Origin: Burkholderiaceae bacterium
GTDB taxonomy: Bacteria; Pseudomonadota; Gammaproteobacteria; Burkholderiales; Burkholderiaceae_C
NCBI GenBank assembly: GCA_030726195.1
Contig: JANREF010000170.1
Coordinates: forward strand, 1 to 18,341
DNA length: 18,341 nucleotides
Reading direction: 5' to 3'
The notes below the pieces were generated by a model. The model saw only the letters and a program-made list of their open reading frames with translations, made no database searches and had not been told where the DNA came from. The position numbers and the translations under genes are program-made. Shown here piece by piece: positions 10,462 to 13,316 of this stretch (within the stretch, counting starts at the first letter, position 1; every line of letters begins with the position of its first letter).

Positions 10462-11595
10462 TTAGCCGCGGCGTTGCTGCACCGCTTGACTCAGAACCTC
10501 CAACACCTCACCTGAGTCGTCCCAGCCCAAGCACGCATCGGTGATGCTCTGGCCGTAAGTCAGCGCAGCCACATCGTCCTTGCCGGGGGTGAATTTTTGC
10601 GCACCCTCGACCAAGTGGCTCTCCACCATCACGCCAAAGACGCTGCTGGAGCCTTGCGCGATTTGCGCGGCCAAGTCTTTGGCCACATCGAGTTGGCGTT
10701 CGAATTTTTTGGCGCTGTTGGCATGGCTGCAATCCACCATGAGACGGGGTGGCAGTTTGGCTGCGCTCAGCTCGGCACAGGCCTCGCTCACGCTCTGAGC
10801 GTCGTAATTCGGTGCTTTACCACCACGCAAAATAACGTGGCAGTCTTGGTTGCCATTGGTCTGCACAATCGCGACTTGACCCGTTTTATGCACAGACAAA
10901 AAGTGGTGGCCGCGAGCCGCCGCCTGAATGGCGTCGGTGGCGATTTTGATGTTGCCATCGGTGCCATTTTTAAAACCAATGGGCGCAGACAAACCTGAGG
11001 CCAACTCGCGGTGCACTTGGCTCTCGGTGGTGCGCGCGCCGATGGCGCCCCAGGCGATCAAGTCGCCGATGTACTGGGGCGAAATTACATCCAAAAACTC
11101 ACTGCCAGCGGGCAAACCCAAGCGGTTGATTTCAATCAACAGCTGACGCGCCATACGCAAGCCCTCGTCGATGCGGTAGCTCTCGTCCATGTAGGGGTCG
11201 TTGATCAAGCCCTTCCAGCCCACTGTGGTGCGTGGCTTCTCGAAGTACACACGCATGACCACTTCCAAGGTGTCGGCGTATTTGTCGCGCAACACCTTCA
11301 GGCGCTTGGCGTAATCCATGGCCGCCGCGGGGTCGTGTATGGAACAAGGACCAATCACCACCAACAGCCTGTCGTCCTGACCCTGAATCATGTCGCGAAT
11401 GCGCGCACGTGTACCGGCAATGAGCGTCTCAACAGGTGTGCCAGCGATCGGGAAGAAGCGAATCAAGTGCTCGGGCGGTGGCAGCACGTTGATGTCTTTG
11501 ATGCGCGCGTCATCGGTTTGGCTGGTCTTCTCAACCTGGTTGTACCAACTGTCGGCGGACTTGCTACCAACGACGGGTTTGCTCTTACTGGTCAT
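10462..11595 (-). CDS. aroG: 3-deoxy-7-phosphoheptulonate (DAHP) synthase, AroG type
   Basis: This enzyme condenses phosphoenolpyruvate and erythrose 4-phosphate, the committed step of the shikimate pathway to Phe, Tyr and Trp. The 377-residue protein is longer than E. coli AroG (350) by an N-terminal extension of roughly 25 residues. Type I-alpha family blocks are VVIGPCSIHDP, MRVYFEKPRTTVGWKGLIND, GARTTESQVHRELASGLS, GFKNGTDGN, GKAPNYDAQSV and MVDCSHANSAK. Asp and Pro in SEFLDVISPQY and Ser in LASGLS correspond to E. coli AroG positions D146, P150 and S180, which affect Phe inhibition; this fits a feedback-sensitive enzyme but does not prove Phe specificity. AGGAG at 11606-11602 lies 6 nt before the ATG. 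Upstream is a leader peptide and terminator arranged as an attenuator. The gene follows tldD on the same strand. Confidence 0.97.
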   Translation of the reverse strand: MTSKSKPVVGSKSADSWYNQVEKTSQTDDARIKDINVLPPPEHLIRFFPIAGTPVETLIAGTRARIRDMIQGQDDRLLVVIGPCSIHDPAAAMDYAKRLKVLRDKYADTLEVVMRVYFEKPRTTVGWKGLINDPYMDESYRIDEGLRMARQLLIEINRLGLPAGSEFLDVISPQYIGDLIAWGAIGARTTESQVHRELASGLSAPIGFKNGTDGNIKIATDAIQAAARGHHFLSVHKTGQVAIVQTNGNQDCHVILRGGKAPNYDAQSVSEACAELSAAKLPPRLMVDCSHANSAKKFERQLDVAKDLAAQIAQGSSSVFGVMVESHLVEGAQKFTPGKDDVAALTYGQSITDACLGWDDSGEVLEVLSQAVQQRRG

Positions 11596-11643
11596 GACGG
11601 GCTCCTGCGCTGTGGCGCGCTGTGATGGACATATGGGACAAAC

Positions 11644-11668
11644 AAAAAAAAACCGCCTTGCGGCGGTT
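11644..11668 (-). terminator. Intrinsic terminator / attenuator in the aroG leader
   Basis: On the minus strand AACCGCC (11668-11662), GCAA loop, GGCGGTT (11657-11651) and nine consecutive T (11652-11644) form a compact intrinsic terminator 48 bp before aroG. Its position between a Phe/Trp/Tyr-rich leader ORF and aroG suggests an attenuator. It could also simply end tldD transcripts, which would then be about 190 nt past the tldD stop. Confidence 0.93.
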
Positions 11669-11719
11669 GTGTGAGAAGAAACAGTAGCGTTGGGCTCAGA
11701 CTACTAACTCTCGACCGCC
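11662..11719 (-). promoter_or_regulatory. Possible antiterminator pairing in the aroG leader
   Basis: GGCGGT at 11719-11714, codons 18-19 of the leader ORF, is exactly complementary to ACCGCC at 11667-11662 in the terminator's 5' arm, with one more possible G-U pair. The intervening loop can hold a small AGTAG/CTACT hairpin (11705-11701 and 11687-11683). The pairing excludes the terminator. The segment becomes exposed when a ribosome stalls on the aromatic codons just upstream and is covered as a ribosome moves through. Confidence 0.6.
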
Positions 11720-11770
11720 AGTTGCGCGTGAGATAAAAAAGTAACCAAACCAAAAGGACTGCTTGTTCAT
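11696..11770 (-). CDS. Aromatic-rich leader peptide of aroG (24 aa)
   Basis: The ORF runs from ATG 11770 to TGA 11698-11696 and begins MNKQSFWFGYFF; it ends RELVV. Six of seven residues at positions 6-12 are aromatic: four Phe (all TTT), one Trp and one Tyr. The protein has no other recognisable role; composition and position directly before an intrinsic terminator and aroG mark it as a regulatory leader peptide. By analogy with pheA and trp leaders, shortage of charged tRNAs would stall the ribosome here and allow aroG transcription. No Shine-Dalgarno precedes the ATG; TACATT lies 8 nt upstream, so initiation could be nearly leaderless. The function is inferred from architecture; the ORF and the terminator are directly visible. 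Confidence 0.82.
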   Translation of the reverse strand: MNKQSFWFGYFFISRATGGRELVV

Positions 11771-11778
11771 ATGACTGA

Positions 11779-11807
11779 AATGTAGCACATCAAGGCTGAA
11801 CACAAAC
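11779..11807 (-). promoter_or_regulatory. Candidate promoter of the aroG leader transcript
   Basis: TACATT (11784-11779) is a plausible -10, with weak T/G-rich -35 choices such as GTTTGT (11807-11802) at 17 bp or TTTGTG at 16 bp. Transcription would begin within about two bases of the leader ATG at 11770. The element lies in the 85 bp between the tldD stop and the leader. Assignment is tentative. Confidence 0.35.
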
Positions 11808-11855
11808 TGACGCCCACCCAGTAGCGCACGGTGTGCCCTGCCTTTAAGGCTGGCG

Positions 11856-13316
11856 TTAGGCCGTACCACCCACGGTCAAACCGTCGATTCGCAAGGTCGG
11901 CTGGCCCACACCCACGGGTACGCTTTGCCCCTCTTTACCGCAAGTGCCCACGCCACTGTCCAGCGCCATGTCGTTGCCTATCATGCTCACACGCGTGAGT
12001 GCATCTGGGCCGTTACCAACCAAGGTAGCGCCCTTGACGGGATACTTCAGCTGCCCGTTTTCAACCCACCACGCTTGACTGGCAGAAAACACAAACTTGC
12101 CCGACGTGATGTCGACTTGGCCGCCACCAAAGTTGGTCGCGTACAAGCCCTTTTTGATGGAGCCAATGATTTCATCGGGTGTGTGCTCGCCGTTGAGCAT
12201 GTAGGTGTTGGTCATGCGCGGCATGGGCACGTGGGCGTAACTCTCGCGCCTGCCATTGCCCGTGGGCGCCACACCGCTGAGGCGTGCATTCATGCTGTCT
12301 TGAATATAGCCGCGCAAAATACCGTCCTCAATCAGGACATTGCGCTGGCTGGCATTGCCTTCGTCATCGATGTTGAGCGAGCCGCGTCGGTCGGCAATCG
12401 TGCCGTCGTCCAACACGGTCACGCCTTTGGCCGCTACGCGCTCACCAATGCGACCTGCAAACGCGCTGGAGCCCTTGCGGTTGAAGTCGCCCTCCAAGCC
12501 GTGACCGACCGCCTCGTGCAACAAAATACCAGGCCAGCCAGAGCCCAGCACCACGGTCATCTCACCGGCTGGTGCGGCCTGGGCATCGAGATTGGTAATG
12601 GCATTGCCCACCGCATCTGTCACGTACTGCTGCACCAAGGCATCGTCAAACATGTCCAAGCCCAAGCGACCGCCGCCGCCTGCGCTGCCGACTTCGCGGC
12701 GTGCACCTTGCTGCGCAATCACCGTCACCGACAAGCGCGACAAAGGACGCACATCGGCGGCCATCACGCCGTCGGCGCGCGCCACCATAACCACATCAAA
12801 CTCGCTGGCCAAACTGGCCATGACTTGCACCACGCGGCTGTCGGCCGCCTTGGCCAAACGCTCTACTTTTTCAAGCAAGGCCACTTTGCTGGCGCTGTCC
12901 AAACTTTGCGTGGGGTCTATGCCGCCGTACAAACTGCGCGCCGGCGCGATCAGCTTGGGCGCTACCTTGACGCGCTTGTTTTGCCCTTGGTTGGCAATGG
13001 TGCGCACCGTGTGAGCGGCATCGCGCAAGGCGGTCCAAGACAAGTCATCTGAATAGGCAAACGCGGTTTTCTCACCGCTGATGGCGCGTACGCCAACGCC
13101 TTGGTCAATCGAAAAACTGCCGCTCTTCACGATACCCTCTTCCAAGCTCCAGCCCTCTGCGCGGGTGTATTGGAAGTACAGGTCGGCGTCGTCTACGCCT
13201 GCGCTGAGCATATCGCCCAGTGCGCGGCGCAAGTGGGTCTCGGTCAAGCCGTGGGGCTCTAGCAAGTACTGGTGAGCCGTTTGTAAGCGGGCAATGGTGG
13301 GGGTGCGACTGGTCAT
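11856..13316 (-). CDS. tldD: TldD family metalloprotease
   Basis: TldD, normally with TldE/PmbA, is a zinc metalloprotease that degrades unfolded peptides and matures microcins or CcdA antitoxin in enterobacteria. The 486-residue length is standard. The catalytic HEAVGH (HExxxH) is at 267-272 within GILLHEAVGHGLEGDFNRKG. The C-terminal GVGTCGKEGQSVPVG contains the cysteine that serves as third zinc ligand in the family. No TldE is encoded in the window. ATG 13316 lacks a Shine-Dalgarno, and TACAAT lies 6 nt upstream. It is transcribed towards aroG; whether aroG is also read from this promoter depends on the terminator upstream of aroG. Confidence 0.97.
   Translation of the reverse strand: MTSRTPTIARLQTAHQYLLEPHGLTETHLRRALGDMLSAGVDDADLYFQYTRAEGWSLEEGIVKSGSFSIDQGVGVRAISGEKTAFAYSDDLSWTALRDAAHTVRTIANQGQNKRVKVAPKLIAPARSLYGGIDPTQSLDSASKVALLEKVERLAKAADSRVVQVMASLASEFDVVMVARADGVMAADVRPLSRLSVTVIAQQGARREVGSAGGGGRLGLDMFDDALVQQYVTDAVGNAITNLDAQAAPAGEMTVVLGSGWPGILLHEAVGHGLEGDFNRKGSSAFAGRIGERVAAKGVTVLDDGTIADRRGSLNIDDEGNASQRNVLIEDGILRGYIQDSMNARLSGVAPTGNGRRESYAHVPMPRMTNTYMLNGEHTPDEIIGSIKKGLYATNFGGGQVDITSGKFVFSASQAWWVENGQLKYPVKGATLVGNGPDALTRVSMIGNDMALDSGVGTCGKEGQSVPVGVGQPTLRIDGLTVGGTA

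Follow-up and report, generated by a model that had tools for sequence, protein, structure and literature searches.

A probable ribosome-mediated attenuator with an aromatic leader peptide upstream of aroG in Burkholderiales

Introduction

The pheL leader of Escherichia coli encodes an aromatic-rich peptide, and its RNA has the alternative pairings 1:2, 2:3 and 3:4, with a terminator located before the biosynthetic gene. A survey of attenuation was reportedly published by Vitreschak in 2004. In gammaproteobacteria, pheA and trp are under attenuation according to the available part of PMC5343134, where aroG is listed under TrpR in Pasteurellales and under TyrR in Vibrionales. Putative attenuators before tyrA operons, one of them in Bordetella parapertussis, are given in the accessible sections of PMC1173090. 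The trpL RNA of Sinorhizobium meliloti starts with the trpL ATG (available part of PMC7298713), and leaderless mRNAs have been reported in Burkholderia cenocepacia and Cupriavidus metallidurans (portions of PMC4603805 and PMC7563307). Term searches of PMC5343134, PMC1173090, PMC2965389, PMC4833913, PMC4603805 and PMC7563307 revealed no betaproteobacterial aroG attenuator, nor was one found described in the literature searched, a scope outside which most subscription papers and supplementary files fall.

Here, we analyze an element upstream of aroG in an 18,341-nt stretch of DNA from a Burkholderiaceae bacterium (contig JANREF010000170.1), referred to in its entirety as the window. On the combined weight of sequence, comparison and folding, we consider it very likely that the element is a ribosome-mediated transcription attenuator, which would match aroG expression to the availability of charged aromatic tRNAs (mainly those for Phe and Tyr, with Trp added in this family). 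It resembles the pheA (pheL) attenuator known from gammaproteobacteria, E. coli among them, in its aromatic-rich leader, its predicted 1:2, 2:3 and 3:4 alternatives and the terminator before the gene. However, it stands at the first step of the shikimate pathway and not at the Phe branch, its leader has Phe, Tyr and usually Trp codons, it is apparently leaderless, and it has no Rfam match in the window. A leaderless leader would be shared with the trpL-trpE(G) attenuator of S. meliloti, which, in contrast, is Trp-specific, alphaproteobacterial and located before trpE(G). The gammaproteobacterial DAHP synthase genes under TyrR/TrpR encode the same enzyme family and are also controlled by aromatic amino acids, but protein regulators act at the DNA there, whereas a cis RNA and a leader peptide would act here. 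The kind of control is known, and what appears new is its multi-aromatic, aroG-attached and probably leaderless form, which was not found in the literature searched.

Results and Discussion

Organization of the aroG locus

On the minus strand of the window, tldD is followed by a leader ORF, a hairpin with a T tract, and aroG. The features are as follows.

13316-11856, minus strand: tldD (NCBIfam TldD)
11779-11789, minus strand: extended -10 promoter element TGTGC-TACATT, read from the sequence, with its hexamer ending 8 nt before the leader ATG
11696-11770, minus strand: leader peptide ORF, 24 codons plus stop, MNKQSFWFGYFFISRATGGRELVV, with the control codons at 6-12
11724-11733, minus strand: strand 1, predicted to pair with strand 2 in the protector 1:2 hairpin (minimum-energy fold)
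11709-11719, minus strand: strand 2, GGCGGT (11719-11714, codons 18-19) plus GAGA, with strand 1 or strand 3 as predicted partner
11662-11668, minus strand: strand 3, AACCGCC, 5′ arm of the terminator (fold, terminator scan and pair counts)
11651-11657, minus strand: strand 4, GGCGGTT, 3′ arm of the terminator (fold, terminator scan and pair counts)
11644-11652, minus strand: T tract of the terminator, nine T (sequence and terminator scan)
11602-11606, minus strand: Shine-Dalgarno AGGAG of aroG (sequence)
10462-11595, minus strand: aroG, class I 3-deoxy-7-phosphoheptulonate (DAHP) synthase, the putatively regulated gene (profile match)

The aroG product scores 537 bits against NCBIfam TIGR00034 (cut-off 173) and 558.8 bits against the AroG-specific NF006723, slightly below the cut-off of 568. 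The first-pass annotation, made from the sequence of the window, had placed a 24-codon minus-strand ORF at 11770-11696 with FWFGYFF at codons 6-12, and both the coordinates and the codons (four Phe, one Trp and one Tyr) are right. The GC hairpin with nine T that it described in front of aroG is present in the sequence and in the terminator scan, and aroG, starting at 11595, does have its own Shine-Dalgarno at 11606-11602. Only the interval between the stop codon and the hairpin needs correction, from 28 to 27 nt. The terminator reads AACCGCC-GCAA-GGCGGTT (11668-11651), extends over 11668-11644 with its T tract, and is separated from the aroG ATG by only 48 nt after the T tract. GGCGGT of codons 18-19 is able to pair with the terminator 5′ arm, as had been claimed. 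The RNA strand from 11775 to 11640 folds with -40 kcal/mol (z -2.8), which was equalled by one of 200 shuffles. The proposal of a classic attenuator layout in front of a DAHP synthase gains support from the leader, the terminator, the 2:3 and 3:4 alternatives and the conservation described below.

A known Rfam element was considered and rejected: no family reached its gathering score in the window, and the matches below it were far under the cut-off. The Rfam families Phe_leader and Trp_leader are both missing from the four matches that 11560-11860 gives at E ≤ 5. Elsewhere in the window, inspection by eye revealed a 190-aa Ala/Lys-rich repetitive protein with AAKK repeats, histone-H1-like, at 2208-2780, downstream of an ORF resembling the small subunit of ribonucleotide reductase (779-2014).

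Conservation in and around the home family

Comparison was based on 110 aroG loci, consisting of the top 30 from an aroG search of 60 relatives, 56 of which gave a match, and the best 80 of 593 named loci, which include Variovorax, Acidovorax, Hydrogenophaga, Polaromonas, Limnohabitans, Xylophilus and Comamonas. An aromatic leader (at least four aromatics in 10 residues) with a terminator downstream was found in 100 of these 110 loci, two pairs of which come from the same genome. The hairpin finder behind this count accepts weak hairpins and chose inner hairpins in several long-loop loci; the pair counts given below use the CCGCC/GGCGG arms instead. The ten other loci are L058, a locus devoid of upstream sequence, four Polynucleobacter, two Cupriavidus and three metagenome bins. 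Under a stricter definition (an ATG-started ORF of 10–35 aa with at least five aromatics in 10 residues), 96 of 109 aroG upstream regions contain an aromatic ORF, against 0.3 expected from base shuffling, which argues that its presence is not due to chance.

A covariance model, R1, was built from 44 leader sequences with no part of aroG included. It matches 146 of 150 genomes sampled from the home family (f1, probably Comamonadaceae) at E ≤ 0.001, and the match is single in 143; at least 13 of the 150 had given sequences to the model. In each of the 28 home-family genomes common to the aroG search and the R1 search, it lies just upstream of aroG.

Several individual loci deserve mention. In a genome of the same genus (G001:C1:2223977-2225042), aroG is split into two adjoining matches, residues 22–128 and 128–377, through a frameshift or an assembly error. 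Two bins named Polynucleobacter (L062 and L063) retain the leader element. In the Polynucleobacter loci L080, L081, L084 and L086, tldD adjoins aroG and there is no leader; L080 has a TAAAAT box 6 nt before an in-frame ATG of aroG, and aroG itself may be leaderless there.

Promoter and start of the leader

Distinct leaders were grouped into an aroG-similarity set of 103, from the aroG searches and the f1 genomes of an order-wide search, and a set of 53 from other families. An extended -10 pattern (TGnTAnnnT, with at least four of six matches to TATAAT) ending 6–8 nt before the leader ATG is present in 94 of the 103, compared to 0.1 expected in shuffled upstream sequences, and in 93 of 97 once six odd loci (L061, L097, L099, L104, L109 and L110) are moved out of the family-type group by hand. 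A Shine-Dalgarno-like motif precedes only two of the 103 leaders and two of the 53, compared to 85 of 100 aroG genes. This combination of a closely placed -10 box and a nearly absent ribosome-binding motif makes a leaderless RNA the probable template for translation of the leader. In the window, the box at 11789-11779 has a gap of 8 nt, which predicts a start at 11772 or 11770 and a 5′ UTR of 0–2 nt. This reading goes beyond the first-pass annotation, which lacked it. That annotation had made its proposal depend on a transcript start before 11770, and a promoter-like extended -10 element lies directly there, although a strict promoter scan of 11550-12000 finds no site. No -35 element stands out in the aligned leader upstream sequences of the gap 6, 7 or 8 groups.

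The TA-rich box could also belong to a longer 5′ UTR, in which case the attenuator would not be leaderless: transcription would start further upstream, and the leader would be translated without a Shine-Dalgarno. Among the other-family leaders, only 12 of 53 have the extended -10 (21 of 53 if the TG is not required, 1.3 expected), and no -10 is seen at that spot in families f3 (0/5), f8 (0/6), f20 (0/5) and f32 (0/3). We nevertheless regard a longer 5′ UTR as unlikely, given the 6–8 nt spacing of the box in the aroG-similarity set and the base preceding the ATG, which is C in 17 of 19 leaders with gap 6 and 43 of 49 with gap 7, but in only 11 of 23 with gap 8, the group of the window.

Conservation and covariation of the RNA strands

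Of 97 distinct leaders, 91 contain the GGCGG of strand 2. It lies in frame 0 in 73 of them, 49 of which read Gly-Gly-Arg-Glu, and frames 2 and 1 account for 17 and one, respectively. Judged by these sequences, strand 2 is conserved as RNA rather than as peptide. The aromatic run and the stem complementarity, on whose retention in relatives the first-pass annotation had made its proposal depend, are kept in most of them (100 of 110 loci and 91 of 97 leaders, respectively). A stop codon directly follows the strand-2 Gly-Gly (GG*E) in 11 leaders (for example, L012, L023, L026, L041, L053 and L085), and the remaining leaders end 15–35 nt after the start of GGCGG.

The bases flanking the three conserved arms (before the strand-2 GGCGG, after the strand-3 CCGCC and before the strand-4 GGCGG) form the combination C-G-C in 81 elements and U-A-U in 22, out of the 156 that remain from 159 after dropping the duplicates L055, L066 and L142 (the folding and complementarity sets used 157, with L142 in). 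Compensatory exchanges, C-G/U-A and G-C/A-U, link strands 2, 3 and 4. The consensus fold of a first alignment (A1, 44 sequences) yields the terminator alone, and none of its pairs has changed on both sides, because A1 is too uniform; a wider alignment of 45 diverse sequences (A2) was used for this reason. In A2, 21 sequences have G-C and 18 have A-U at the flanking terminator position, which is unpaired in four and gapped in two, with a covariation score reached by none of 500 shuffles, and the antiterminator pair 78:156 is C-G in 11, U-A in 11, U-G in three, G-C in one and unpaired in 19 of 45, with a score reached by nine of 500 shuffles; these counts ignore relatedness, and the exchange follows lineages and represents few events. 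The compensatory changes in the two stems, proposed as a check by the first reading, were found, for 2:3 and for 3:4, in both the A2 pair counts and the three-strand counts. The 3:4 pairs are formed in 96.8% of cells in A2, and the leader tail complements strand 3 better than shuffled tails do (mean of the best value 19.4, compared to 12.6, in a score of our own).

A leader so close to aroG might act on translation, through coupling or reinitiation, and the available part of PMC4833913 proposes reinitiation at leaders in general terms. Yet a terminator with a T tract lies between leader and aroG, its arm co-varies with strand 2, and an SD-like motif by the same pattern precedes aroG in 85 of 100 leader-bearing loci, with any in-frame ATG or GTG allowed. 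Control at the level of translation in place of transcription termination is, consequently, very improbable.

Simulated switching and proposed mechanism

Folding of nascent RNA was simulated with the transcript cut just after strand 3 and a ribosome mask reaching through 12 nt past the start of the A-site codon, an assumed footprint. In the window, the probability of 2:3 pairing is 0.007 without a ribosome and 0.998–0.999 with a ribosome on an aromatic codon. Over 157 elements, the median is 0.03 (mean 0.27) without a ribosome, compared to 0.99 (0.83), 1.00 (0.98) and 0.99 (0.85) with the ribosome at the first, second-last and last aromatic codon, respectively. In the complete RNA at equilibrium, the terminator dominates every state (means of 0.94–0.99; 0.97–1.00 in the window, even with a stalled ribosome). 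Antitermination must, therefore, be kinetic, with 2:3 formed before strand 4 is made.

Synonymous recoding was applied to the 40 elements of the first set. A strict switch criterion holds for 23 of the 40 natural elements and fails for 17, compared to 106 of 400 recoded ones that satisfy it. Recoding lowered the stalled 2:3 probability from 0.98 to 0.78, whereas the free value went from 0.32 to 0.28 and did not rise; this lends moderate support to the 2:3 pairing and none to 1:2. The 1:2 protector hairpin is predicted by folding only, and only 55 of the 157 elements have strand 2 covered by a ribosome at the stop codon under the assumed footprint.

The leader, the terminator, the 2:3 and 3:4 pairings, their conservation and the position of the promoter are supported by sequence, comparison and folding; we infer the start site, termination, stalling and the response to amino acids. 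Transcription would start at or within ~2 nt of the leader ATG, and the leader would be translated from a leaderless RNA. When aromatic tRNAs are charged, the ribosome would pass codons 6-12 and leave, allowing strand 1 to pair with strand 2; the 3:4 terminator would then form and transcription would stop near 11644. When Phe, Tyr or Trp is short, the ribosome would stall on codons 6-12 and cover strand 1, so that strand 2 (GGCGGT) could pair with the emerging strand 3 before strand 4 is made, and with 2:3 formed the polymerase would read on into aroG.

Relationship to tldD

The setting between tldD and aroG, taken by the first-pass annotation as the frame for comparison, applies to the window and to the 78 of 106 loci with tldD just upstream of aroG, but it does not extend to 23 leader-bearing loci (two from the same genome) that have no tldD in the stored upstream sequence of up to ~1.4 kb. 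The element does not need tldD as a neighbor. The hairpin, which is downstream of tldD in the window, could be a mere tldD terminator, with the leader ORF incidental and aroG served by its own promoter, and the frequent adjacency of tldD would fit. There is little chance of this, since the aromatic leader, GGCGG and terminator accompany aroG as a set in different families, the four Polynucleobacter loci have tldD beside aroG but no leader, and the strict scan finds no promoter-like site for aroG itself. A terminator serving tldD only was rejected on the basis of the 23 loci. Although the RNA and peptide of the Sinorhizobium trp attenuator act in trans (available part of PMC7298713), a main function of the aroG element as a ligand-binding riboswitch, T-box or trans-acting small RNA is scarcely credible, as no Rfam family reaches its gathering score in the window and the conserved positions cluster in the -10 box, ATG, aromatic codons, GGCGG/GAGAG and terminator.

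Predicted amino acid specificity

All 103 leaders of the aroG-similarity set contain Phe, 100 contain Tyr, 88 contain Trp and 87 contain all three. The corresponding numbers for the 53 other-family leaders are 53, 49, 21 and 20. As Trp codons are usual only around the home family (88/103 vs 21/53), Phe and Tyr represent the common core, and the leaders share a core of Tyr-Phe-Trp-Phe just before strand 1. From this sequence content, the attenuator appears to sense Phe and Tyr, to which Trp is usually added in the home family and its surroundings, the response itself being predicted. Phe is encoded by TTT in 276 of 425 cases in the leaders, compared to 194 of 834 in aroG of the same loci, a preference that may make decoding slower or leave the region unstructured.

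Distribution beyond the home family

R1 matches were found at E ≤ 0.1 in 95 of 250 genomes of the order, although many of these matches are short and limited to the terminator. The top 54 places (E ≤ 2.6e-4, including that of the window) are all upstream of an aroG homolog; ten weaker places were fetched, of which seven are upstream of aroG, one is upstream of leuA and two are at neither. In a small first sample of the order, aroG was matched in 20 genomes outside f1, and seven of these have an R1 match beside it. Leaders were found in families f1, f3, f4, f8, f10, f11, f12, f13, f20, f23, f30, f32, f40 and f44. A search of the class with a second model, R2, gave matches in 33 of 274 genomes, and 20 matches were fetched. 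Five of these have an aroG homolog, those of two home-family genomes, the window and two f63 genomes; no aroG homolog was detected by tblastn in the remaining 15, two of which were unreadable at the given offset. Outside the order, the f63 matches L210 and L212 are the only ones upstream of aroG among the 20 fetched. The element, which the first-pass annotation proposed to trace across Comamonadaceae, is not confined to them: it extends to further families within the order and to one that lies outside. A record named Solimonas (L074) also carries the element with aroG. Transfer, contamination or common descent are possible explanations for the element in f63 and in this record.

Second copies of aroG in the home family served as controls (19 listed, 13 fetched; 53–58% identical, one 62%). 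None of the 13 has at least five aromatics in 10 residues or a CCGCC/GGCGG terminator. The paralog L204 comes close, with a weak hairpin and a GTG-started ORF containing four aromatics in 10, a combination that the looser rule of at least four aromatics would let through. Likewise, none of 13 order genomes with aroG but no adjacent R1 match has a leader with at least five aromatics in 10, and none has an aromatic leader with a CCGCC/GGCGG terminator; L195 has a CCGCC...GGCGG hairpin with four T and no aromatic ORF, and L199 has an ORF with four aromatics and no such terminator. Seven weak R1 matches occur elsewhere in the genome of the window; five were inspected, four of which are a bare hairpin, and none has an obvious aromatic leader. 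Weak R1 matches without aroG also occur in L172 and L178. By eye, L172 (G169:C6:38230-38372) has an ORF, MNTQSFLACSYYWYRTSTGGARLE, and downstream of it a CCGCC/GGCGG hairpin whose T tract is poor, but no aroG follows.

A sister element upstream of leuA and wider implications

R1 also matches leuA leaders in three home-family genomes. A survey of 19 leuA loci, 18 of which could be parsed (L248 could not), was read by eye. Nine of 11 home-family leuA loci, including that of the genome of the window, and three loci from other families have a Leu-rich leader whose ATG is immediately preceded by a TA-rich box; loci of this kind include L237 (G000:C40, the genome of the window), L174, L229, L230, L232, L233, L235 and L238–L242. 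The TA-rich -10 box lies 6–8 nt before the ATG, though these boxes are not independent evidence since the choice of ORF favored those with a -10-like box, and most loci have a GGCCCG...CGGGCC terminator. The leuA element resembles the aroG element in the spacing of its -10 box, a leader rich in codons of the pathway and a terminator before the gene; it differs in its Leu codons, its gene and its terminator core (GGCCCG/CGGGCC). From its sequence, it seems to be a sister attenuator for Leu, apparently leaderless as well.

The arrangement of leader, promoter and terminator may be general. We suggest, tentatively, that leaderless attenuators form a class in Burkholderiales (aroG, leuA and perhaps others), with the promoter fused to the start codon of the leader. 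The regulatory window would then be set by 70S initiation and by the coupling of transcription and translation. If this is true, the ribosome would have to load on the 5′-terminal AUG of a very young transcript and pace the polymerase from the first nucleotide. If leaderless, the aroG element would be a compact natural system for the coupling of ribosome and RNA polymerase at a 5′-terminal AUG, with termination decided within ~125 nt. The element is also a source of aromatic-responsive control parts for use in harmless Comamonadaceae. As aroG is the entry to aromatic amino acid synthesis, its attenuator could explain how this entry step is tuned by means other than the TyrR/TrpR logic of gammaproteobacteria.
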